Shown one piece after another: positions 1 to 19,251 of a stretch of 27,208 nucleotides of DNA (the first letter of the stretch is position 1; each line of letters starts with the position of its first letter). Origin of the DNA: a virus. The translations under genes and the position numbers were made by a program. A model generated the notes under the pieces. That model had not been told where the DNA came from. It made no database searches and saw only the letters and a list, made by a program, of their open reading frames with translations. Where the stretch lies: positions 1 through 27,208 of IMG/VR virus record IMGVR_UViG_3300042090_003237. The stretch is one strand, 5' to 3'.

Positions 1-1302
1 ATGTCAAACACTCGCCAGACCACCAACACCAGCCGGGCCCTCTGCGTCATCATGGGCGGCGGCCAGGGCAAGCGCCTGTTTCCGCTCACGAAGGACCGCG
101 CCAAGCCCGCCGTGCCGCTCGCCGGCAAATACCGCCTGGTGGACATCCCGATCTCGAACTGCATCAACTCCGGCTACCGGCGCATTTACATTTTGACGCA
201 GTTCAATTCCACCTCGCTGAACGGCCACATCTCGCGCTCCTACAAGTTTGACGGATTCACCCCCGGCTTCGTGGAAGTCCTCGCGGCGCAGCAGACGCTC
301 AACAACAACTCGTGGTATGAAGGCACGGCCGACGCGGTGCGCAAAAACCTCGTCCACTTTTTGAACCATGATTTCGACCAGCTCGTCATTCTGAGCGGCG
401 ACCAGTTGTATCGGATGAATTTCCAGTCGGTGGTTTCGCAGCACATCGTGACCGGCGCGGACATCACCATCGCCACCATGCCCGTCGGCCGCAGCGAGGC
501 GATGGCGCTCGGCATCATGCAGATTGACGACACCAACCGCATCACGCGCTTCGTGGAAAAGCCGAAGGAGGACGCCACGCTGGACACGCTCAAGCTGCCG
601 GCGGCGATGCAGGCGAACCTCGGCATCAAGGACGGCGAGCATTACCTCGCCTCGATGGGCATCTACGTTTTCAGCCGCCGGGTCATCTGCGAGCTGCTGG
701 ACAACCCGCTCTCCGACTTCGGCAAGCACATCATCCCGCACGCCATCCAGTCGCGCCGCGTTTTCTCCTACGTTTATCAGGGCTACTGGGAGGACATCGG
801 CACCATCCGTTCTTTTTTCGAGGCGAACCTGGATCTGGTTTCCGAGCTGCCGCGCTTCAACTTCTTCGACATGACCGCGCCGATTTTCCACGCGCCGCGC
901 AACCTGCCCGGTTCCAAAATCAACGGCGCGCAGATTGACCATGCGCTCGTCGCCGACGGTTGCATCATCAACCGCGCGACCATCAACCGCACCATCGTCG
1001 GCCTGCGCACCATCATCGGCTCGGGCACGGAGCTGAACCGGGTCATCATCCTGGGCAGCGACTATTATGAATCCATCGAGTCGGTGAAGCACCACGAACA
1101 AAAGGGCTGGCCGCGCGTCGGCATCGGCGAGAACTGCAAGATCGAGAACGCCATCATTGACAAGAATGCGCGCATCGGCAACAACGTGACCATCTCGCCC
1201 GCCGGCAAGCCGGAAAACCACGACGACAAGCTTTACTACGTCCGCGACGGCATCGTGATCATCCCGAAGGACGCGGTGATTCCGCACGGCACGGTGATTT
1301 GA
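1..1302 (+). CDS. glgC: Glucose-1-phosphate adenylyltransferase (ADP-glucose pyrophosphorylase)
   Basis: This enzyme makes ADP-glucose from glucose-1-phosphate and ATP in the cytoplasm, the committed step of bacterial glycogen synthesis. The 433-aa protein is full length for the family. It shows the nucleotide-binding loop GGGQGKRL (residues 19-26) followed by the RAKPAVPLAGKYRLVDIPIS segment, GTADAVRKN (108-116), GDQLYRMN (133-140), the sugar-phosphate motif FVEKP (184-188) and YWEDIGT (262-268). The C-terminal third has the hydrophobic repeat pattern of a left-handed beta-helix, which carries allosteric control in this family. The ATG is the first base of the window, so its ribosome binding site and any upstream start cannot be seen. 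It is the only gene here that is clearly host housekeeping, and it runs opposite to the phage operon. Confidence 0.97.
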   Translation: MSNTRQTTNTSRALCVIMGGGQGKRLFPLTKDRAKPAVPLAGKYRLVDIPISNCINSGYRRIYILTQFNSTSLNGHISRSYKFDGFTPGFVEVLAAQQTLNNNSWYEGTADAVRKNLVHFLNHDFDQLVILSGDQLYRMNFQSVVSQHIVTGADITIATMPVGRSEAMALGIMQIDDTNRITRFVEKPKEDATLDTLKLPAAMQANLGIKDGEHYLASMGIYVFSRRVICELLDNPLSDFGKHIIPHAIQSRRVFSYVYQGYWEDIGTIRSFFEANLDLVSELPRFNFFDMTAPIFHAPRNLPGSKINGAQIDHALVADGCIINRATINRTIVGLRTIIGSGTELNRVIILGSDYYESIESVKHHEQKGWPRVGIGENCKIENAIIDKNARIGNNVTISPAGKPENHDDKLYYVRDGIVIIPKDAVIPHGTVI

Positions 1303-2118: not shown

Positions 2119-3012
2119 CTACCAGTTCGTAATCGCCAGCCGGCCCCAAGCATTCGTCCCCCAGCAATAATATAGGTAGTTTGAGTCCCCGCAAATCTGC
2201 CCACCTCCGACGCCGAAACTCGATGCATTATTCGACGAAATAGTGATGAACGGGATCGTCAGCGGAATGACCGGAGCGAGGCTGGCAAACGCCGGCCCAA
2301 ATTGCGACTGGATCGAGCCGGATGTCAGCACGACATTGGTGTCACCCGTGGGGTCGGTTCCAATGCTGAACGACACGTTCGTCTGGTTGAAATTAGTCAG
2401 GATCGTGGCGCTGAAATAGCCGGGCAAATTCGTGTCTCCGGAAGTGAAGGAAATATTGGAAACAAGGTTGGTTGTGCCGTCGTAATCCAGCGAGCCGGAA
2501 AGGGTGAATCGCCGGCCGCGTCCGGCGGTCCATGGAGAAGTAAAAACTGTCGCGCCACCGACCTGAACAATCACGGAATTCGACGCCGAAGAAGAGTTGT
2601 TCCAGCCGGCCGTCTGAAACGAGACACGGCCGCCGTTCAATGGCCAGAAATTATTCAACGTGACGGAGCTGATTGCGGACGGCGGGAGCGGCGTAGGAGA
2701 AAACCCTGGAGCCGGAAGCGGAGCCGAACCGGAGCTAATCCAGGAGCTGTAAAGATCCAAAGTTGTTCCTTGATAAATTGGCGACCCACCTAGTCCAGTA
2801 TTATAAAGCGCAAAAAATGAACCCGAAACAGCCAAAGTTACATACCATGTAGGGTCACCAACGTGATGTGAATAATTCCCGCTGACATCGTTCGTGTATT
2901 CGCCGAGCGCGGCCGTGTCGCCGCAATTGGTCAGCCAGAAGGGTGACGTTGGCAGCGTTTGCGCCGCGGCCGTTAGAGTGATCAACGAGAGCAGGGACAG
3001 AAATGTTTTCAT
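2119..3012 (-). CDS. Exported fibre-like protein ending the tail operon
   Basis: This 297-aa protein begins with a signal peptide-like stretch (MKTFLSLLSLITLTAAAQTLP, cleavage probably around residues 17-20). A Ser/Thr/Asn/Gly-rich beta-type body follows. Its last residues, SNYLYYCWGTNAWGRLAITNW-like in pattern (aromatic-rich, ending at residue 297), resemble the C-termini of phage tail fibre or tip proteins. The ATG overlaps the stop of the J-like gene by one base (TAATG), so it is translationally coupled to it. The last gene of a tail operon is where a receptor-binding or fibre protein is expected. A Sec signal on such a protein is odd: it may be a surface protein of the lysogen, or the hydrophobic N-terminus may dock it to the tail. 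No enzyme motif is visible. Confidence 0.75.
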   Translation of the reverse strand: MKTFLSLLSLITLTAAAQTLPTSPFWLTNCGDTAALGEYTNDVSGNYSHHVGDPTWYVTLAVSGSFFALYNTGLGGSPIYQGTTLDLYSSWISSGSAPLPAPGFSPTPLPPSAISSVTLNNFWPLNGGRVSFQTAGWNNSSSASNSVIVQVGGATVFTSPWTAGRGRRFTLSGSLDYDGTTNLVSNISFTSGDTNLPGYFSATILTNFNQTNVSFSIGTDPTGDTNVVLTSGSIQSQFGPAFASLAPVIPLTIPFITISSNNASSFGVGGGQICGDSNYLYYCWGTNAWGRLAITNW

Positions 3013-11133: not shown

Positions 11134-11681
11134 TTACGATTGCAGCAGTTTCAACAACCGGTCCCGCTGGGCCTTCCACGCCTCGTCATTGCCCTGCGCG
11201 GCCACCATCAGTTGCAACATGATCCTTGCCTGTTCCTGGTTCCGGGCCTGCGCCGCCAGCTCCAGCCGTTCCCAGCTCTGGTCCAGCGCCTCGTCCAGTG
11301 TCAGCCCAGCGGCGGCGGCATGGAGGGCGACGGCGCGGCTGAAACTGTCCGCTCCATGATCTGTTTCACCATTTCCGGCGGCATCCCGGCCATCTGGTTT
11401 TGGGCGCGGGCGAGCTGCCGCGCCGACCAGACGAAAAAACCCTTCTCATTCACCTCCTGCACGGCCGCATAGAGCAGCTCGTAGCTTGTCGGATCCACCG
11501 CGCCGATCTCGTTGGCTGGAATCCCGCACACCGCCGCCACCAGCGCGATCTCATGGTCCAGTTTTGGAAACAGCGTGACGTATTCGCGCACCTGTATCTG
11601 GCGCACCGTCACTTCGCGCGTGGTTTTGTCGTTGAAGGTGATGGTCAATTTTCGTCCGCCCAGCAATGTGTCTGTATTCAT
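11134..11681 (-). CDS. Tail assembly chaperone, -1 frameshift product (gpGT-like)
   Basis: This is the predicted fusion made if ribosomes slip back one base at GGGTTTTTTC (11433-11442). It keeps residues 1-82 of the 126-aa chaperone (to EKGF) and continues FRLVGAAARPRPKPDG in the -1 frame for 100 more residues to the TAA at 11134-11136, giving 182 aa. The -1 frame is closed by TGA two codons before the slip site and fully open after it. It has no early ATG, and its end (LTLDEALDQSWERLELAAQ, then ...DRLLKLLQS) reads as a helical protein. This is the layout of lambda G/GT and of many siphophages, immediately before the tape measure. It also accounts for the otherwise empty interval 11137-11300. 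Confidence 0.78.
11301..11681 (-). CDS. Tail assembly chaperone (gpG-like)
   Basis: The zero-frame protein is 126 aa: a beta-rich N-terminus (LTITFNDKTTREVTVRQI) followed by helices, then a low-complexity end (SAAPSPSMPPPLG) typical of unshifted chaperones. In siphophages this protein coats the tape measure while the tail tube polymerises. The start overlaps the lipoprotein stop by ATGA and is preceded by AACAATCAAAAAAATATG, so the C-terminal codons of the upstream gene double as an A-rich leader. Identification rests on position before the tape measure and on the frameshift signal, because these chaperones diverge strongly in sequence. Confidence 0.75.
   Translation of the reverse strand: MNTDTLLGGRKLTITFNDKTTREVTVRQIQVREYVTLFPKLDHEIALVAAVCGIPANEIGAVDPTSYELLYAAVQEVNEKGFFVWSARQLARAQNQMAGMPPEMVKQIMERTVSAAPSPSMPPPLG
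11433..11442 (-). promoter_or_regulatory. Programmed -1 ribosomal frameshift site
   Basis: On the minus strand the sequence is GGGTTTTTTC, read in frame as AAG GGT TTT TTC. It contains G_GGT_TTT and, overlapping it, T_TTT_TTC; both fit the X_XXY_YYZ slippery heptamer rule. Slipping here joins the 126-aa chaperone to the -1 frame ending at 11134. Confidence 0.72.
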
Positions 11682-12349
11682 ATTTTTTTGATTGTTAATT
11701 TAGGAATGGAATTGGTTGGCACCGGCACCGTGTAGCTCAAATTGCTGCTCAACGCGCTCACGGCGCCGGCGGCGCTGTAATTGAACGCGGCAAAATCGTA
11801 GGTTGTGCCGCAGTTCAGGTTTGAGACTGTCAGGGTCAGGTTGGTGCCGGCGTCATTGGTGGCCGTGTAAACGCCGGGCAGAATGCCCCACACAATTTTT
11901 GTGCCCGCCACGAGCTGACTGGGAGATTGAGTCCACGACAGGGTCACATTGGCCGCGTTCGTTTCCACCAGCCGGAAATAACGGTGCGGTGAAAGATCGT
12001 TTGTGAATGCGACGCTGTTGGTGGACCAAACGCCCCAATCCTGCCAGCCGCTGTCCGCGCTGGTGCTCGTCTGGACCGCCACCAGATTGGTGACAGTCCA
12101 GAACAATTGAAACACCGCCGGTGGATTCGTGGCGGATGTCGTGGCCACGGCGCCCACGGCGGTCTGCTGCCGCGGCGTAAGCAACGGCGTGACGGGAACC
12201 GCTGGCATGATCGAAATGTCGGCATGGCAAGCCACAACCCAAAGCAGGATGACCAGCAGCGCAAGGGCTATCACTTTACGCCAGGTAAAAATCAGCTTAA
12301 AGCGAGACATCAAATCCGACTTGTCGAAATCCGGGGGCTGGGTGCTCAT
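11678..12349 (-). CDS. Phage-encoded fibronectin type III lipoprotein
   Basis: This 223-aa protein has a basic N-terminus, a strong hydrophobic segment (about 28-41: VIALALLVILLWVV) and a lipobox-like VVAC, with Cys at about residue 41. It is probably exported and lipid-anchored rather than part of the capsid. Residues about 135-210 form an Fn3-type domain (VTLSWTQS, GTKIVWG, LTVSNLNCGTTYDFAAFNYSA), and RYFRLVET before it is a phrase common in exported verrucomicrobial proteins. The first ATG overlaps the upstream stop (ATGA); Met14 would give a more usual signal length. It sits between the SGNH protein and the tail chaperone. A surface role in the lysogen, such as adhesion or superinfection exclusion, is possible but not shown. 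Confidence 0.7.
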   Translation of the reverse strand: MSTQPPDFDKSDLMSRFKLIFTWRKVIALALLVILLWVVACHADISIMPAVPVTPLLTPRQQTAVGAVATTSATNPPAVFQLFWTVTNLVAVQTSTSADSGWQDWGVWSTNSVAFTNDLSPHRYFRLVETNAANVTLSWTQSPSQLVAGTKIVWGILPGVYTATNDAGTNLTLTVSNLNCGTTYDFAAFNYSAAGAVSALSSNLSYTVPVPTNSIPKLTIKKI

Positions 12350-15126
12350 TGTATGCCTGGCGCATTGTTCCTGCGCAAATGGAAGTAGGAGCCTTTGCCC
12401 AGATCAACATAGCCATCACCATTATTATAGGGACAAACCTGAATCAGAATGTTTGCCGTGTTGGTGATGACAATCGTGCCTTGACCCCACCATTTTGAAG
12501 CGAGATTTCCGGCTGGTGCTGCGCCAATGCCGATGCAGCCGCCTGACCCGGATGTGGCGTTCGCTATGATGCTCATACCATTGGCGTTGGCGTCCAGGTT
12601 TCCAGCCCCGGCGCTAAATTGAACGTCCATGATGTAACCTGAAAGGTCAGTGATGTTCCCCGATGAAAGCATGATCTGGCCCTTCGTCCCGGCACTGTTG
12701 GTGGACAGCGCGCAAATCATGTAGTCCACCGAGTAGTAGCCGGGCGCAACATTCGGCACAGTCAAAGCCGTCGTTAAGGTGTTGTTGTTTATGATCGGCA
12801 GATTCGCCGAGTTGGTTGCCGAATAGCCGATGTAGTATTCACCGCCGAAGGCCAAGATGTTTGTCTGTGGCGTTCCTGATGGAGCAAGCATAACCGCCGT
12901 GATGTTTGTTCCATCTGATGAGAGCTGTGCGCCGGTCGTGCCGTTGTAAGACGGTTTGTTTGTGGCCGGCAGCACAACGCCATTTGTCGCAGTCATTGTC
13001 GTCGCCAGTGTCGCGCCGCCTGCCGAAGAATCAAATCCACCCGTTACATGCTGGATGCTGTCGGTTCGAGGATTGTAATTCCAGTTCGCACCGCCGCCGT
13101 AGTTTCCTAAATGGTATCCAGTTGAATCCAATCGGATAAAACCTTCATTGGCATTTTGCGGTGAAGAAAACACTAACCCAAAGACATTCCCGTATGCGGT
13201 CGAGTTTCCATATTGATATTGCAAGTTTGGCGCTCCGATTTTGGAGAATGAATAAAACCGCGCGTCGTTTCCATTTGATGTGTAGGAATTCAAAGAAACG
13301 TCATCGGCTGTGTTCTGGGAAATGAGCGAATCAAATCCGATGGCCTGCATCAGTTGATTGACCGCCCAAACTCGAAGCTGATGCTGCGGATGAATGCCGG
13401 CGCCGCTGGCCGCGAAGCCGGCCCCGATGTCGAAATTATTGTTCATCCAGTTTGTTCCGCCTTGATCCATATAAAGCTGGTATTGGTCAAAGAACGTCCA
13501 TCCATTTGAAGCGGCAACCGATTTTATCGACGCGTCTTCACCGGTGTTCGCCGTCCCTGTAGGGTCAGTGCCGCTCATGATCGGATTCGGGCTGACTAAA
13601 ATAACGTCCGCATTGGGACAGCCGGCCATGAAGTTTGTAAGCGTGTAAGGCGAATAGACCGCCCAATCGTTGCTTGAACTTATTTGCTGGATGATTACCA
13701 GGTTCGGCTGAATCGCCGCCGCCAGTGCCGTCCAGTTCGTGAATGAAGTATAGTTGACCCAGTCCGCGCCGCCGACTCCCTCATTAAAAACCTGGACGCC
13801 TTTTGATGTCCGGTCGCAAATGCCGCATTGATAAACCTTCACTGGATTGCTGGACGCGGCCAGCTTGATGTTATACACGCCGGCCGGCATCGAAAATCCA
13901 ATCTCTTTGATCGTCAGCGAGCTGGCGCTGCATGAAACCGAACCGAGGGTTGTATAGCTGCCGCCTTCGAGAGATGCCGACACCGTCAAAGTTCCCGCCC
14001 CTGGTTCGGCGAAATAATAAACTTCAACGTAGCTCGCCCATAATCTCGCCGACGAGCTTCCAGAGCAATCGCCGTCGAGGACAACGCTTCCGCCGGCCGG
14101 CAGATATGGCGTCTGAAATTGTGTCGCCAGCGGGCCATAAACCGGGCCGTTTGTGGCATACGCGCCGCCGGCGTATGTCGTGCAACCACCTCCCCATCCG
14201 GCGTTGCCGCCTGCCCACATCCCATGCGCCTGAAAATATGCCTGATACGCGTCATACTGATTTGCCGCGAGCGAGTCGCCGAGCGTTACAATCGTGAACG
14301 GGCGGCTTTGCGCCAATGCCTGCCAAGAATTCGTCGCAAGATAAAGGCGGGTTGCAGCGAGCGCCTCGCTCCGGTCCTTTGCCATCGTCAACAAGGTTGC
14401 CGGATTGATGGCTGGATTTGTTCCCAGCGTTGCTGTGTTTGTCACCGCCAGCGCCAGGCCGTTCAATGGCGTCCCATTCGGCGCATTGGTCGCCGTGGTG
14501 GCAATGGCGGCGGTCCCGGACGATGTGGCATACACTGCCGTCAATGCATTCGATGCGGTCGTCCCGCTGACAATCATTATCCAGTTCAAATTTCCCGTGG
14601 CCGAAGTTTTTGTCCATTGCTGGACCAGATTGGTCAAGGTCGTGTCGAACTGGTTGTAGAGCGATCCGTAGCCGGCCGTGTAAATGCCGTTTGGATTGGC
14701 ATTGGTTCCGGCCCAGACGGAGATCGGCAGCGGAATGCCCGCCGGCGGCGCGCTGGTGGTGCTGCCGACCGAGCTGCTGCTGGTGTAATACGCCTGCACG
14801 CCGTTGGTGAGCAGATATGAAAAATTGCCGCCGTTTGAATTAGCCAGCGATGTCCACGCGCTGAAGCGTCCCACATTTAGGCCGCCGTTCAGGATGGCAA
14901 CGCCGCTCCAGGTGCCGCTGTTGGTGGTGATGACGGCCTGCGTGTTGGTGGCCAGCGTTGTGACGGCCGCAAACTTATAGCTGCTGCCGCCGTTCGTCTG
15001 GTAGAGACCAATGACAAGCGGGATGGCGATGTCATTGGTGGCCGTGTAGGAGTTGGCCGCCGGCAGCTCGCCGGGCATCAGGAAGGCGGCAATGGTCGCC
15101 AGTAAAATCAAAAATCTATTTTTCAT
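12346..15126 (-). CDS. Exported SGNH/GDSL-hydrolase-like large protein
   Basis: I start this 926-aa protein at the ATG at 15126, because MKNRFLILLATIAAFLMPGE gives a clear signal peptide; the open frame continues upstream only as antisense-like sequence. Residues 1-270 are Thr/Asn-rich beta structure. An SGNH hydrolase domain spans about 275-600: TIVTLGDSLA (Ser285), the NEGVGGADW Gly block (448-456), SSND (Asn486) and GIHP (His579). The Asp normally three residues before that His is Ala576, so it would work as a Ser-His dyad or be impaired. The last 320 residues are beta-rich and end near WWGQGTIVIT. SGNH domains in phages usually deacetylate or cleave surface glycans. It lies between the tail tube and chaperone genes, where tail fibres are not normally found. 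Confidence 0.72.
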   Translation of the reverse strand: MKNRFLILLATIAAFLMPGELPAANSYTATNDIAIPLVIGLYQTNGGSSYKFAAVTTLATNTQAVITTNSGTWSGVAILNGGLNVGRFSAWTSLANSNGGNFSYLLTNGVQAYYTSSSSVGSTTSAPPAGIPLPISVWAGTNANPNGIYTAGYGSLYNQFDTTLTNLVQQWTKTSATGNLNWIMIVSGTTASNALTAVYATSSGTAAIATTATNAPNGTPLNGLALAVTNTATLGTNPAINPATLLTMAKDRSEALAATRLYLATNSWQALAQSRPFTIVTLGDSLAANQYDAYQAYFQAHGMWAGGNAGWGGGCTTYAGGAYATNGPVYGPLATQFQTPYLPAGGSVVLDGDCSGSSSARLWASYVEVYYFAEPGAGTLTVSASLEGGSYTTLGSVSCSASSLTIKEIGFSMPAGVYNIKLAASSNPVKVYQCGICDRTSKGVQVFNEGVGGADWVNYTSFTNWTALAAAIQPNLVIIQQISSSNDWAVYSPYTLTNFMAGCPNADVILVSPNPIMSGTDPTGTANTGEDASIKSVAASNGWTFFDQYQLYMDQGGTNWMNNNFDIGAGFAASGAGIHPQHQLRVWAVNQLMQAIGFDSLISQNTADDVSLNSYTSNGNDARFYSFSKIGAPNLQYQYGNSTAYGNVFGLVFSSPQNANEGFIRLDSTGYHLGNYGGGANWNYNPRTDSIQHVTGGFDSSAGGATLATTMTATNGVVLPATNKPSYNGTTGAQLSSDGTNITAVMLAPSGTPQTNILAFGGEYYIGYSATNSANLPIINNNTLTTALTVPNVAPGYYSVDYMICALSTNSAGTKGQIMLSSGNITDLSGYIMDVQFSAGAGNLDANANGMSIIANATSGSGGCIGIGAAPAGNLASKWWGQGTIVITNTANILIQVCPYNNGDGYVDLGKGSYFHLRRNNAPGIQ

Positions 15127-15944: not shown

Positions 15945-16175
15945 TTATTTTATGGTTGGTGATGTTTGTTGGGCGGCGGGTTGGATCAGCCGCACGCGCG
16001 CCGCTCTCTCACCGCGCTGGCTGTTTTCGATTTCAAACTCGACCAGGTCGCCCTGGTTAAGCTTCGTGCCGTAACGGACGGCGGAACCGTGGACAAAGAC
16101 ATCCGGCGCGTCATCGCGGACGATGAAGCCGAAGCCTTTCTTGGCATCGAACCATTTAATTTTTCCGGTTTGCAT
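15945..16175 (-). CDS. Cold-shock-domain RNA/DNA-binding protein (CspA family)
   Basis: This 76-aa protein is a near-canonical cold-shock domain. It shows GKIKWFDAKKGFGFI with RNP1 at residues 13-18 (KGFGFI), RNP2 at 26-32 (VFVHGSA, usually VFVHFSA) and the closing LVEFEIENSQRGERAARVRLI. These proteins bind single-stranded nucleic acid and melt RNA structure. The gene lies between a neck protein and the tail tube gene, 4 bases after the former and 3 before the latter, so it belongs to the late operon and is made during virion assembly. Its last codons also form part of the A-rich leader of the tail tube gene. The operon contains strong stem-loops it could act on. Phe to Gly in RNP2 is a notable change at a base-stacking position. 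Confidence 0.93.
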   Translation of the reverse strand: MQTGKIKWFDAKKGFGFIVRDDAPDVFVHGSAVRYGTKLNQGDLVEFEIENSQRGERAARVRLIQPAAQQTSPTIK

Positions 16176-17197: not shown

Positions 17198-17581
17198 TTA
17201 AGTTGCTTCCGCCAGCAGTTCGGTCACCACTTCATTGACCGCCCTGGCATCGAGACGCCCCGGCTCGGCGTTCAAGACCGCCGCCGTTTCCGTCTGGATC
17301 CGTTTCAGGTCGTCCTTGGAGGCGCCGGCATATTGTTCCTTCAACGCGGCCTTTTTGGCGGCCGCCTCGTTTGCCTGGTTTTTTTCCTGTTTGGGATTTA
17401 CCGGGATGCGGCTGGCCTCCACGGTCGCGCCGGCCGTGACCGGCGTGGTGTCGCTGACCTTCTCGGCCCAGCCGTCTTCCACCAGGAGTTTGCCGTGCTT
17501 GTCGCTGACTTCGACGACCGCGCCGACCTTGTGATGCAGTTTGCCGCCGAGTGCGACGGGCTTTCTAATTTTTACTTTCAT
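17198..17581 (-). CDS. Phage head-associated protein of unknown function
   Basis: This 127-aa protein has two parts. An N-terminal beta domain (MKVKIRKPVALGGKLHHKVG, then VVEVSDKHGKLLVEDGWAE) resembles the short domain often found beside capsid genes. A helical, Ala/Lys/Glu-rich C-terminus (about 70-127) follows. Mu-like phages have a gene of this size (gp35) between capsid and gp36, so it may be its counterpart. It is bracketed by stem-loops H2 and H4, and its leader CAACAAAAATAAAATCATC is A-rich. Confidence 0.6.
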   Translation of the reverse strand: MKVKIRKPVALGGKLHHKVGAVVEVSDKHGKLLVEDGWAEKVSDTTPVTAGATVEASRIPVNPKQEKNQANEAAAKKAALKEQYAGASKDDLKRIQTETAAVLNAEPGRLDARAVNEVVTELLAEAT

Positions 17582-17609: not shown

Positions 17610-17632
17610 GGCGCAGCCAGGCTGGCCGCACC
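17610..17632 (-). other. Intergenic stem-loop H2
   Basis: Minus-strand RNA GGTGCGGCC pairs with GGCTGCGCC around AGCCT, with two G-U pairs that would be A-C mismatches on the other strand. It begins 9 bases after the stop of the prepilin-like gene and is followed by AAAAACAAACAACAAAAA. The first arm shares GGTGCGGCC with H1. Confidence 0.65.
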
Positions 17633-17641
17633 TTTGGATGT

Positions 17642-18184
17642 TTACTGGCCCGACTGCGAATAGGTCAGCGTGGTGGTGACCGAGTTCGAGCCGGCCAGCG
17701 CGCCGGCCGTGTTGTTGGTGGCGGTGGTGGCCTGGATCGTCCGCACGTTGTCCAAGTAGGCCGCCGGAAAGTTTGTCCAGAACGTGTTCGTCGTGAGCGT
17801 GCCCTGGGCGCTCGCCGGTGGCCCGAACGTCCACTTGATCGGCTGTGTGGTCGTGCCGCGCAGGCCGTCATAGGTGACGTCGAACCCGATCGTTTCCGTC
17901 GTCACCGTGGTGTTGGAACTGACGCATGTCGCGAACGCGGACAAGCCCTTGCCCTGGCGCAACGTTTTTTTGGCGCCCGCCAGCGTCGCGGATTGTGCAT
18001 TCGTCAACGTGATCGGAAATGCGTTCGTGTCCTGCACCCAAAAATTAGGCGCACCGCCCGGATAAGTCAGCGTCGTCAGTCCCTGCCCCATTGCCGGCAA
18101 CGTAAGCGCGGCGAACAGGCCGATGATGGCCACAACCACGAGCAATTGCAGCATCGAGAAGTTTTCCCATTTGTTGAATTTCAT
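17642..18184 (-). CDS. Prepilin-like protein in the phage capsid operon
   Basis: This 180-aa protein starts MKFNKWEN and then reads FSMLQLLVVVAIIGLFAAL (residues 9-27), TLPAM. This is almost the type IV prepilin/pseudopilin helix of verrucomicrobial and planctomycetal proteins (FTLIELLVVIAIIAILAAL). Two key residues differ: the Gly before the cleavage point is Asn8, and the Glu5 equivalent is Gln13. Cleavage and methylation by prepilin peptidase are therefore doubtful. The remaining 150 residues are Thr/Asn-rich beta structure without a family I recognise. The gene follows the major capsid gene, separated by stem-loop H3 and an A-rich leader, with H2 behind it. It could be a membrane protein of the lysogen interfering with pili, or a virion protein with a borrowed helix. 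Confidence 0.8.
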   Translation of the reverse strand: MKFNKWENFSMLQLLVVVAIIGLFAALTLPAMGQGLTTLTYPGGAPNFWVQDTNAFPITLTNAQSATLAGAKKTLRQGKGLSAFATCVSSNTTVTTETIGFDVTYDGLRGTTTQPIKWTFGPPASAQGTLTTNTFWTNFPAAYLDNVRTIQATTATNNTAGALAGSNSVTTTLTYSQSGQ

Positions 18185-18210: not shown

Positions 18211-18241
18211 TGGCGGCGGAGCCATGGTGGCCCCACCGCCA
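18211..18241 (-). other. Intergenic stem-loop H3 behind the capsid gene
   Basis: Minus-strand RNA TGGCGGTGGGGCCA pairs with TGGCTCCGCCGCCA: 14 pairs, two of them G-U, with a CCA loop. It starts 5 bases after the capsid stop codon. No U tract follows; the leader AATAATAAAATAAAAATATG of the next gene does. Stabilising the capsid mRNA 3' end or partial termination are both plausible. Confidence 0.7.
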
Positions 18242-18246
18242 GATGT

Positions 18247-19251
18247 TTAGAACGACAGCACGGACTGCAGCAGGAACGCCGCCTTGGCGCCGACGACTTT
18301 CTCGCCGACGTAATGCTCGCCGCGATGCACGTCCGATTTTTTTGTTTCATCCCGGTAGTCCATGATCTGGAGCAGTTCGGGACCGCCGCCGCCGCCGGCC
18401 ACCATGCCGGGCCCGGTGCCGCCCGTGGCCGGAGTGACCGGCGACGTGAACGCCGTCCAGTAGAACGTGCGCGCGAAGTTGGGCAGTTCGAGATCGTCGC
18501 CCTCCTCCACGTGGGCAAGAATGCAGTCGTGGCCCCAGATGTCGGCCGGTGTGAAGATCTGGCCCTCCAGATTTGTCGCCTGCACCGTCTTGGCAATGAC
18601 CACGCCGCCCTGCGGCAGCCCGAAGTAGGACGCGAGCTTGTCCTCGTTGAGCAGGCCGGCCTGCGTGTATTTGAACACGTCGAGCAGCTTCGGATGCTGC
18701 TGCAGTTTCAGGAACACGGGATTGCTGATGACCATGAGGTTCACCTCCATGCCGCTGTTCTGGCGGATGAACTCCTTCGCGGCGTCCACGTCGTCCTTCG
18801 GATTGCTGGAGGGATCATCCCACTTGGCCGCGACGCCGGCATAGGAGACCTTGGTGGTGTCCGTGGCCAGCGTATGGACGCGGAGCTCGTGGTTGACCTT
18901 GAGCGTGTCCACGATCTTGCGGACCTTGGCCACGTCGGCGTCGAAGAAGGCGCCGTATTTTGCGCGCTCTTCGTCGGGCACCAGGCCTTCCAAACCGAAG
19001 TTCTGACAAAAATAATTGTCATTGCTTAAGATGGAGGTCACGCGCGGATAGCCGCTGCCCGGAGCGCGCGGGCGCAGGATGGGCACGTTGGCGAGTTCGT
19101 CGGCTCCGAACATGTAGTAGGAGGCCGCCTGCAGCGCGGTCGGGAACGGGGGTGCCAGCTTGGCGCCCACAAAACCCTTCGGATCGCGCATGAACTGGTT
19201 TGCGATCTTGGTGAGGATCGGATTCAATGTTGCGTTTGTTTGAATTGGCAT
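18247..19251 (-). CDS. Major capsid protein (HK97 fold)
   Basis: This 334-aa protein is the predicted shell subunit. Features typical of this capsid group are the N-terminal FMRDPKGFVGAKLAPPFPT, YYMFGADELA, the RAPGSGYPRVTS loop (about 62-73), FGLEGLVPDEERAKY (about 85-99) and a C-terminal GEHYVGEKVVGAKAAFLLQSVL strand. It is followed by H3 and preceded by the leader AACGACATAAAAATATG in a 35-base gap, as expected for the most abundant protein. It lies after protease/scaffold and decoration genes, the Mu/lambda order. A Gly-rich stretch near residue 285 probably forms a surface loop. Confidence 0.88.
   Translation of the reverse strand: MPIQTNATLNPILTKIANQFMRDPKGFVGAKLAPPFPTALQAASYYMFGADELANVPILRPRAPGSGYPRVTSILSNDNYFCQNFGLEGLVPDEERAKYGAFFDADVAKVRKIVDTLKVNHELRVHTLATDTTKVSYAGVAAKWDDPSSNPKDDVDAAKEFIRQNSGMEVNLMVISNPVFLKLQQHPKLLDVFKYTQAGLLNEDKLASYFGLPQGGVVIAKTVQATNLEGQIFTPADIWGHDCILAHVEEGDDLELPNFARTFYWTAFTSPVTPATGGTGPGMVAGGGGGPELLQIMDYRDETKKSDVHRGEHYVGEKVVGAKAAFLLQSVLSF

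Follow-up and report, generated by a model that had tools for sequence, protein, structure and literature searches.

A prepilin-like helix as a probable export leader for a beta-sandwich protein encoded behind the capsid gene of Mu-like phages

Why should a protein encoded directly behind the major capsid gene of a phage begin with what looks like the hydrophobic helix of a type IV prepilin? The question is raised by a virus record of 27,208 bases (IMG/VR IMGVR_UViG_3300042090_003237), analysed over its full length and called the window here, which carries on its minus strand a Mu-like late operon with a Mu-type portal, a family-E capsid protein and an NlpC/P60 protein. The window virus is likely a virus of Verrucomicrobia-type bacteria. 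Comparisons with host prepilins use G001, the bacterial genome in which the relative L037 lies; by host order we mean the order of G001. The answer that we favour, and hold to be probable, is that the gene encodes an exported phage protein, whose leader would be a prepilin helix converted to a Sec signal peptide for the export of a jelly-roll-like domain. The features of the window to which the text refers are the following (an arrow marks a putative cleavage point).

17642-18184, minus strand: the gene studied, an open reading frame with homologues in all other rows of the clade described below; its product of 180 amino acids has a hydrophobic leader and an all-beta domain
18086-18184, minus strand: leader, residues 1-33 (MKFNKWEN FSMLQLLVVVAIIGLFAALTLP AMG)
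18104-18160, minus strand: prepilin-like hydrophobic helix, residues 9-27, with Asn before Phe1 and Gln at +5 (score 74; helix at 11-27 in the model)
18083-18094, minus strand: putative signal peptidase I site AMG↓Q, residues 31-34, read by rule
17645-18085, minus strand: mature domain, residues 34-180, a predicted jelly-roll-like beta-sandwich with strands between residues 47 and 178 (model and fold matches)
18247-19251, minus strand: major capsid protein gene (family E), directly upstream (phrog_1005, 6.1e-53; Phage_cap_E, 3.9e-5)
17198-17581, minus strand: small gene directly downstream, with weak PHROG matches
18211-18241, minus strand: hairpin between the capsid gene and the studied gene, -28.7 kcal/mol, not specific to the gene
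17610-17632, minus strand: hairpin after the studied gene, -18.5 kcal/mol, found by folding
12346-15126, minus strand: second leader-bearing gene, behind the tail-tube-like gene; its product has 926 amino acids and starts MKNRFLILLATIAAFLMPGELPAAN
11678-12349, minus strand: gene in the same tail slot for a protein of 223 amino acids whose N-terminus carries a hydrophobic segment, found by eye and unflagged by the scan

The reading frame is real, though it lies on the minus strand, and residues 9-27 of its product are exactly FSMLQLLVVVAIIGLFAAL, the prepilin-like helix noticed in the initial annotation. Translation also bears out what was said there of the two residues most needed by a pilin: Asn stands before Phe9 in place of Gly-1, and Gln stands at +5 in place of Glu5. 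The placement between the major capsid gene and a head protein gene holds on one side, where the capsid gene lies upstream in a capsid operon; the downstream gene has weak PHROG matches only, the best at 3.8e-5 to a family of unknown function and another at 0.012 to a head-tail connector family. Scored ungapped with BLOSUM62 against the prepilin consensus, the window leader reaches 74, and none of 5000 shuffles of its 24-residue core is as high (mean 6.1, sd 8.9), the observed score being the best position in the leader and the shuffles being scored at one position. The window helix is prepilin-like well above chance, in a comparison that leaves convergence possible.

Searches of family libraries likewise found matches at the N-terminus. 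Curated pseudopilin models align the window protein at about residues 6-33, weakly and far below their cut-offs (the best, GspG, has an E of 0.017 over residues 9-32 and reaches 15 bits where the cut-off is 89), and the best pseudopilin-model match in the family is 5.8e-07. Against Pfam, N_methyl included, the window protein matches 0 families at E<=10, and N_methyl is matched by one of ten family members (5.1e-05). PHROG 27437, a candidate lead for the whole protein (2e-5, residues 4-135), was rejected: without the leader, the mature domain has no PHROG match at E<=0.1, so the score comes from the leader. With the window protein alone as query, 34 pattern matches were obtained among viral contigs, none of which was confirmed, so that no relative by sequence was found there, and in phage records short N-terminal matches only, spread over 52 records and in every case short of 80% query coverage. 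When ten family members were built into a profile, 155 of 387 Verrucomicrobiota genomes had matches to it at E<=0.001, with at most eight candidates scored per genome; most among the matches listed cover just the first part of the profile, and all 29 loci examined among those outside G001 are FTL.EL-type prepilins.

Relatives came from capsid and portal queries, which gave the viral contigs L002-L005 and L011-L036 and the genome contig L037, from a query with the family alignment, which added L010, and from a capsid profile run on whole genomes, positive in 11 of 387 and 9 of 293, G600 among them. Some identifiers denote one and the same contig (L002/L003/L007/L012; L004/L009/L016; L005/L008/L015; L006/L011; L037/L068/L080). 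In a capsid tree of 17 rows, ten (the window, L010, L011, L012, L013, L014, L015, L016, L037 and G600) form one supported clade (100/100), and in all ten rows of this Mu-like clade the gene lies directly behind the capsid gene, a count in which the window is the discovery site and L010 was found with the gene as query, the other eight not having been chosen for the gene. Outside the clade, L018 also carries the gene, and a remnant of the family is present in contig 95 of G001 (prophage remnant L120). In the stretches examined of L017, G229, G092, G498, G436 and G244, likewise outside the clade, there is no such gene behind the capsid gene and no profile match; the capsid matches in G422, G463, G502, G533, G115 and G218 are not counted among these gene-less relatives. 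One capsid query gave 26 loci, seven of which have the gene; it is absent among the open reading frames listed for the other 19, which gave no profile match.

The mature domain ties these proteins together. Besides its own members, a profile of seven close mature domains recovered L013 (6e-16), L018 (2e-6), L120 (3e-6) and L037 (5e-5) from 6264 open reading frames and nothing else at E<=10; a second round added L014 (3e-6), the next match having an E of 1.1. Judged by this domain, the proteins form one family, at the same place in the ten clade rows, L018 and the L120 remnant. Its closest pair, L011 and L012, has a dN of 0.087 and a dS of 0.388, and the window and L011 have a dN of 0.49 and a dS of 0.92. 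At the level of titles and abstract openings, the literature searched held no report of this protein family; a search for prepilins of Lentisphaerae found no paper.

The leaders are of two kinds. Among fourteen that we scored, the twelve of the family and two from unrelated proteins of G210 and G069, seven are prepilin-like, with scores of 50-80 and 0/5000 shuffles as high in each case (window, L010, L011, L012, L015, L016 and L037), and the other seven, G210 and G069 among them, score -1 to 20. The clade thus has seven members with prepilin-like leaders and three with other leaders before the same all-beta domain, and L018 and the L120 remnant also keep the mature domain behind leaders that are not prepilin-like. 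According to the initial annotation, related phages with an N-terminal helix unlike prepilins would speak against its reading, and three of the ten clade members are of this kind. Since five family members keep the domain behind non-prepilin leaders, the pilin helix is not the conserved part. G600 (score 9) adjoins L016 (score 68) in the capsid tree, with support of 100/99, and 52% of the mature domain is common to both; on the same tree, the prepilin-like label needs three changes, at least two of them forced by well-supported branches. It follows from this difference between neighbours and from the changes on the tree that the leader changes and the cargo is kept. Across the family, leaders of 29 to 94 residues with one to two hydrophobic stretches have the same domain behind them.

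We then compared the prepilin-like leaders with the prepilins of G001. In the 84 listed, the residue at -1 is Gly (41) or Ala (43), that at +5 is Glu (84) and that at +1 is Phe in 83. Gly or Ala at -1, present in 84/84 of these, occurs in none of the seven phage leaders, which have Asn (window, L015), Lys (L010, L011, L012, L016) or Ser (L037), so the altered residue before the cleavage point, first described for the window gene, generalises. The alteration of Glu5 does so in part: the window and L010 have Gln at +5 and L011 and L012 have Gly, making four of seven, and Glu5 is kept in L015, L016 and L037. Of the best-scoring 30 loci of G496, G600, G658 and G607, 29 have Gly or Ala at -1; the remaining one, L198, lies at the end of a contig and is misaligned there, and it too reads Gly-Phe.

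A further difference lies behind the helix. At least one Lys or Arg stands at offsets 24-39 after Phe1 in each of the 79 host prepilins (of the 84) that are long enough for this stretch, and none stands there in the six phage leaders with the domain directly behind them. Furthermore, a small-x-small motif followed by ten residues without Lys or Arg is found in 0/79 host prepilins and in all six of these direct phage leaders, where the putative sites are AMG↓Q (window), AAA↓Q (L010), AWS↓Q (L011 and L012), VQA↓D (L015, one residue farther from the helix than the other five) and AMA↓Q (L016). Small residues occur at offsets 22 and 24 in 46/79 host prepilins, so that the small-x-small motif by itself would be inherited and the uncharged stretch behind it is the difference. 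L037 departs from this pattern: behind its helix come six Lys/Arg and then a second hydrophobic stretch that ends AMA↓Q before the domain, and for this reason its helix resembles a membrane segment rather than a cleaved signal. In the window leader, the features of a class I Sec signal are present by rule, namely a positive n-region, an h-region, a small-x-small c-region and an uncharged mature start.

Asn at -1 was rejected as sufficient proof of lost processing and, taken alone, is not decisive, because other Verrucomicrobiota prepilins relax this position and carry Lys, Asn, Arg or Ser there. Prepilins with Ser, Asn, Lys or Arg at -1 and with Glu5 retained were observed in several Verrucomicrobiota genomes (L081-L109, and loci L216-L245 of G206, G174 and G095). 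In the 29 host loci L081-L109, which were picked by the phage profile and hence with a preference for such residues, the -1 position is K 6, N 6, R 5, Q 4, S 3, I 2, A 2 and C 1, and Glu5 and Lys/Arg behind the helix are retained in every one of them; the first ten loci have S 6, G 3 and N 1 in G206, G 4, A 4, S 1 and Q 1 in G174, and G 6, A 2 and S 2 in G095. The review PMC4471445 describes Gly at -1 as absolutely critical for the prepilin peptidase site; it also describes non-canonical substrates accepted by many prepilin peptidases, and prepilins without class I cleavage residues after the helix.

In the model of the full protein, a low-confidence linker joins a helix at residues 11-27 to an all-beta domain (pLDDT 73, pTM 0.59), and the mature part modelled by itself reaches a pLDDT of 76 and a pTM of 0.73. 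The best structure match listed for the full model, to BcsB, has a Z of 9.7 and an rmsd of 3.6 over 120 residues; the best fold match of the mature-part model has a Z of 8.9. Further fold matches are Eph receptor ligand-binding domains, CBM16 and IBDV VP2, Foldseek gives TNF-like lectins (1.6e-4), and there is no pilin among the structure matches listed. These fold matches are middling and mutually unrelated, and we consequently call the domain jelly-roll-like and no more; a jelly-roll-like beta-sandwich is what the models predict, and matches of this kind are common to many unrelated beta-sandwiches.

Together, these comparisons point to a leader that descends from a prepilin and serves in export, and we infer the following course. 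The helix would still direct the nascent chain to the Sec machinery. The prepilin-peptidase site and the charged stretch after the helix have been lost, as the sequences show, and a putative small-x-small signal peptidase I site is present at the helix end, whereby the all-beta domain would be released to the periplasm, or stay tethered if cleavage is poor. The domain would then act outside the cytoplasm and not in a pilus, perhaps by binding surface glycans or a receptor, or newly released virions around lysis; this last step, which we propose more tentatively than export, is suggested by the position behind the capsid gene and the lectin- or CBM-like predicted fold. The conserved slot is puzzling for such a protein, because an exported protein cannot join head assembly in the cytoplasm.

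A second reading, unlikely but the one we would consider next, leaves the leader uncleaved, as a one-pass anchor (two-pass in L037, L014, L013 and G600) that holds the beta domain on the periplasmic face, where it might, for example, exclude other phages or anchor an assembly step. The prepilin helix is normally a membrane anchor, and in these four of the ten clade members a loop separates two hydrophobic stretches. Among phage proteins, several that obstruct type IV pili or other receptors in Pseudomonas are listed in the review PMC11436027. Against tethering stand the signal-peptidase-I-like junctions without Lys or Arg behind them in the six direct leaders, and the place of the gene among the head genes of the late operon.

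The capsid slot is not the only one in which a leader is found. Between the tail-tube-like and tail assembly genes, a signal-type start is present in all seven clade members with a comparable tail module (window, L010, L012, L013, L015, L016 and G600, the tail assembly gene of G600 being itself unmatched); it is flagged by our signal-peptide scan in the window, L010, L013, L016 and G600, and was read by eye in L012 and L015. L014 and L037 have another tail module, with no leader-bearing gene in the slot, and the L011 contig ends before it. L018, with the same alternative tail module, has signal-like starts at two other places. Leader-bearing and probably exported proteins thus follow both main shell genes (capsid, 10/10; tail tube, 7/7), which has led us to consider that they are adhesin-like coat parts, stored in the periplasm and bound to new heads and tails at the burst, a host pilin leader having been captured as one among interchangeable export tags. 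We regard this as rather doubtful, somewhat more so than a tethered domain. The scan itself is crude, since it also flags tape-measure, terminase and misread reading frames, and it served to find candidates only: its hits number 1 to 4 at each locus of the clade, 1 to 3 in three gene-less capsid relatives and 0 to 2 in the eleven further Mu-like phages scanned, counts that alone do not show an excess of leader-bearing genes. It flags the studied gene in 10 of 11 loci, though in L013, L014 and L037 the start flagged is an internal one, and leaves G600 unflagged.

Several single observations belong beside these slots. Late-operon products with signal-like or membrane leaders are encoded in the window at 12346-15126, 11678-12349 and 2119-3012, all on the minus strand, and the first of these matches no Pfam family at E<=0.01. 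At 15178-16065 of L018, a signal-like start is in frame with a tail-tube-like protein through apparently untranslated sequence. In G210 and G069, which are more distant Verrucomicrobiota prophages, the capsid gene is followed by a small protein that is unrelated to the family and has a plain signal-type start (L074 and L075, reverse strand; 42% identity between the two); as candidate family members both were rejected (hhalign probability 0.2 and 0.0). In another distant prophage, a product of 137 amino acids with a signal-like start is encoded directly upstream of the capsid gene (L078 of G057, 251-664).

Improbable, in our judgement, is a virion component made in the cytoplasm, a head decoration or fibre whose hydrophobic N-terminus is packed on or in the capsid. 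Its place directly behind the capsid gene in every clade row would suit such a protein, as would the annotation of several fold-matching predicted viral structures as tail or fibre proteins and the presence of the unrelated small signal-leader proteins in the same slot of G210 and G069. A peptide that docks on the capsid would, however, be expected to be conserved, whereas the leaders vary in length and in the number of their hydrophobic stretches.

Very unlikely is one of the roles proposed in the initial annotation, that of a dominant-negative pilin; its unprocessed helix would enter the pilus or the type II secretion machine of the host and block it, thereby excluding superinfection. The resemblance to prepilins is genuine, five genomes of the likely host order offer 33 to 101 N_methyl places each, and Gly-1 is altered, as is Glu5 in four of seven leaders; moreover, pilins with mutated Glu5 can enter mixed filaments, according to the review PMC4471445. 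Yet three of ten clade rows, L018 and the remnant keep the domain without a prepilin-like helix, the leader differs between the neighbours G600 and L016, and an uncharged stretch with a signal-peptidase-I-like site, at which six of the seven prepilin-like leaders end, replaces the charged stretch of pilins. Last, a leader that is hydrophobic by chance and shares no history with prepilins is scarcely credible. Seven of the fourteen leaders tested are indeed ordinary hydrophobic stretches, but the other seven stand well apart from them (50-80 against at most 20) and no shuffle reaches any of these, a comparison that does not bear on convergence.

The stem-loops on both sides had made the gene look like an inserted unit. 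Two hairpins do flank it in the window (-28.7 and -18.5 kcal/mol); neither, however, travels with the gene across relatives. Ten loci were folded: a strong hairpin stands behind the capsid gene in the window (-28.7), L011 (-43.6) and L012 (-29.6), and this hairpin is -7.4 or weaker in L013, L014, L015, L016, L018, L037 and G600, all of which bear the gene; in L010 an inverted repeat after the capsid gene was read in the sequence. Capsid relatives without the gene differ among themselves, G229 having such a hairpin (-40.2) and G244 none (-2.0); L017, G092 and G498 were discounted, their stretches of 103 to 134 bases being ones that may hold coding sequence. For the hairpin after the gene, the next strongest among nine relatives folded is that of L018 (-12.7). 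A unit marked by stem-loops was consequently rejected, the hairpin after the capsid gene being missing in several gene-bearing relatives and present in the gene-less G229. Comparison with related phages also goes against insertion: a moron would be present in some close relatives and absent from others at the same place, and here all ten clade rows have the gene there. Its absence from more distant capsid lineages implies that it was gained or lost once, at a deeper level.

The protein has partial likenesses to several known systems. With type IV prepilins and pseudopilins (class III; N_methyl, TIGR02532, GspG) it shares a Phe-first N-terminal helix near the consensus and an expected Sec route, and it differs from them by having no Gly or Ala before Phe1, by the missing Glu5 in four of seven leaders, by the lack of a charged continuation in six of seven, by the signal-peptidase-I-like site after the helix and by an all-beta domain with no pilin among the matches listed. 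Phage-encoded pilins (PHROG 3433 'pilin', for example in Synechococcus phage S-CAM7), which PHROGs classes with morons, are likewise phage genes with a prepilin-type N-terminus, and here about the first 30 residues alone align (17% of the query, E about 1; phrog_3433, E 0.0093). Head decoration and head fibre proteins are encoded behind capsid genes and resemble the studied protein in gene position and in having a small beta-sandwich domain; to our knowledge, none has an export leader. T5 Llp and lambda Lom and Bor are exported accessory phage proteins that act at the envelope and thus share with it a signal peptide on a phage accessory protein; they differ in the protein itself and in gene position.

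If the favoured reading of an exported protein is right, a pilus-subunit helix seems, in this phage family, to have been captured and turned to another export route, one peptidase site being lost and another gained, and leaders change between close relatives with the cargo kept. Signal-type leaders also stand, in these Mu-like phages of Verrucomicrobia, in slots that are usual for virion decoration genes. Should the cargo be found on virions, these phages would have coat parts that are added from outside the cytoplasm; should it be absent from them, the late operon would encode an unrecognised factor that acts at the envelope.

Two other genes of the window deserve mention. At its left end (1-1302, plus strand) lies a glgC-type gene, whose best match among 293 genomes is 85% identical and comes from G496, a genome drawn from the same order as G001; it is probably host DNA beside a prophage end. 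Within the late operon, between the head and tail genes (15945-16175, minus strand), lies a cold-shock-domain gene (Pfam CSD, 2.8e-20); the same search found none in the stretches examined of L010, L011, L012 and G600, and found one in each of L013, L014, L015, L016, L018 and L037.
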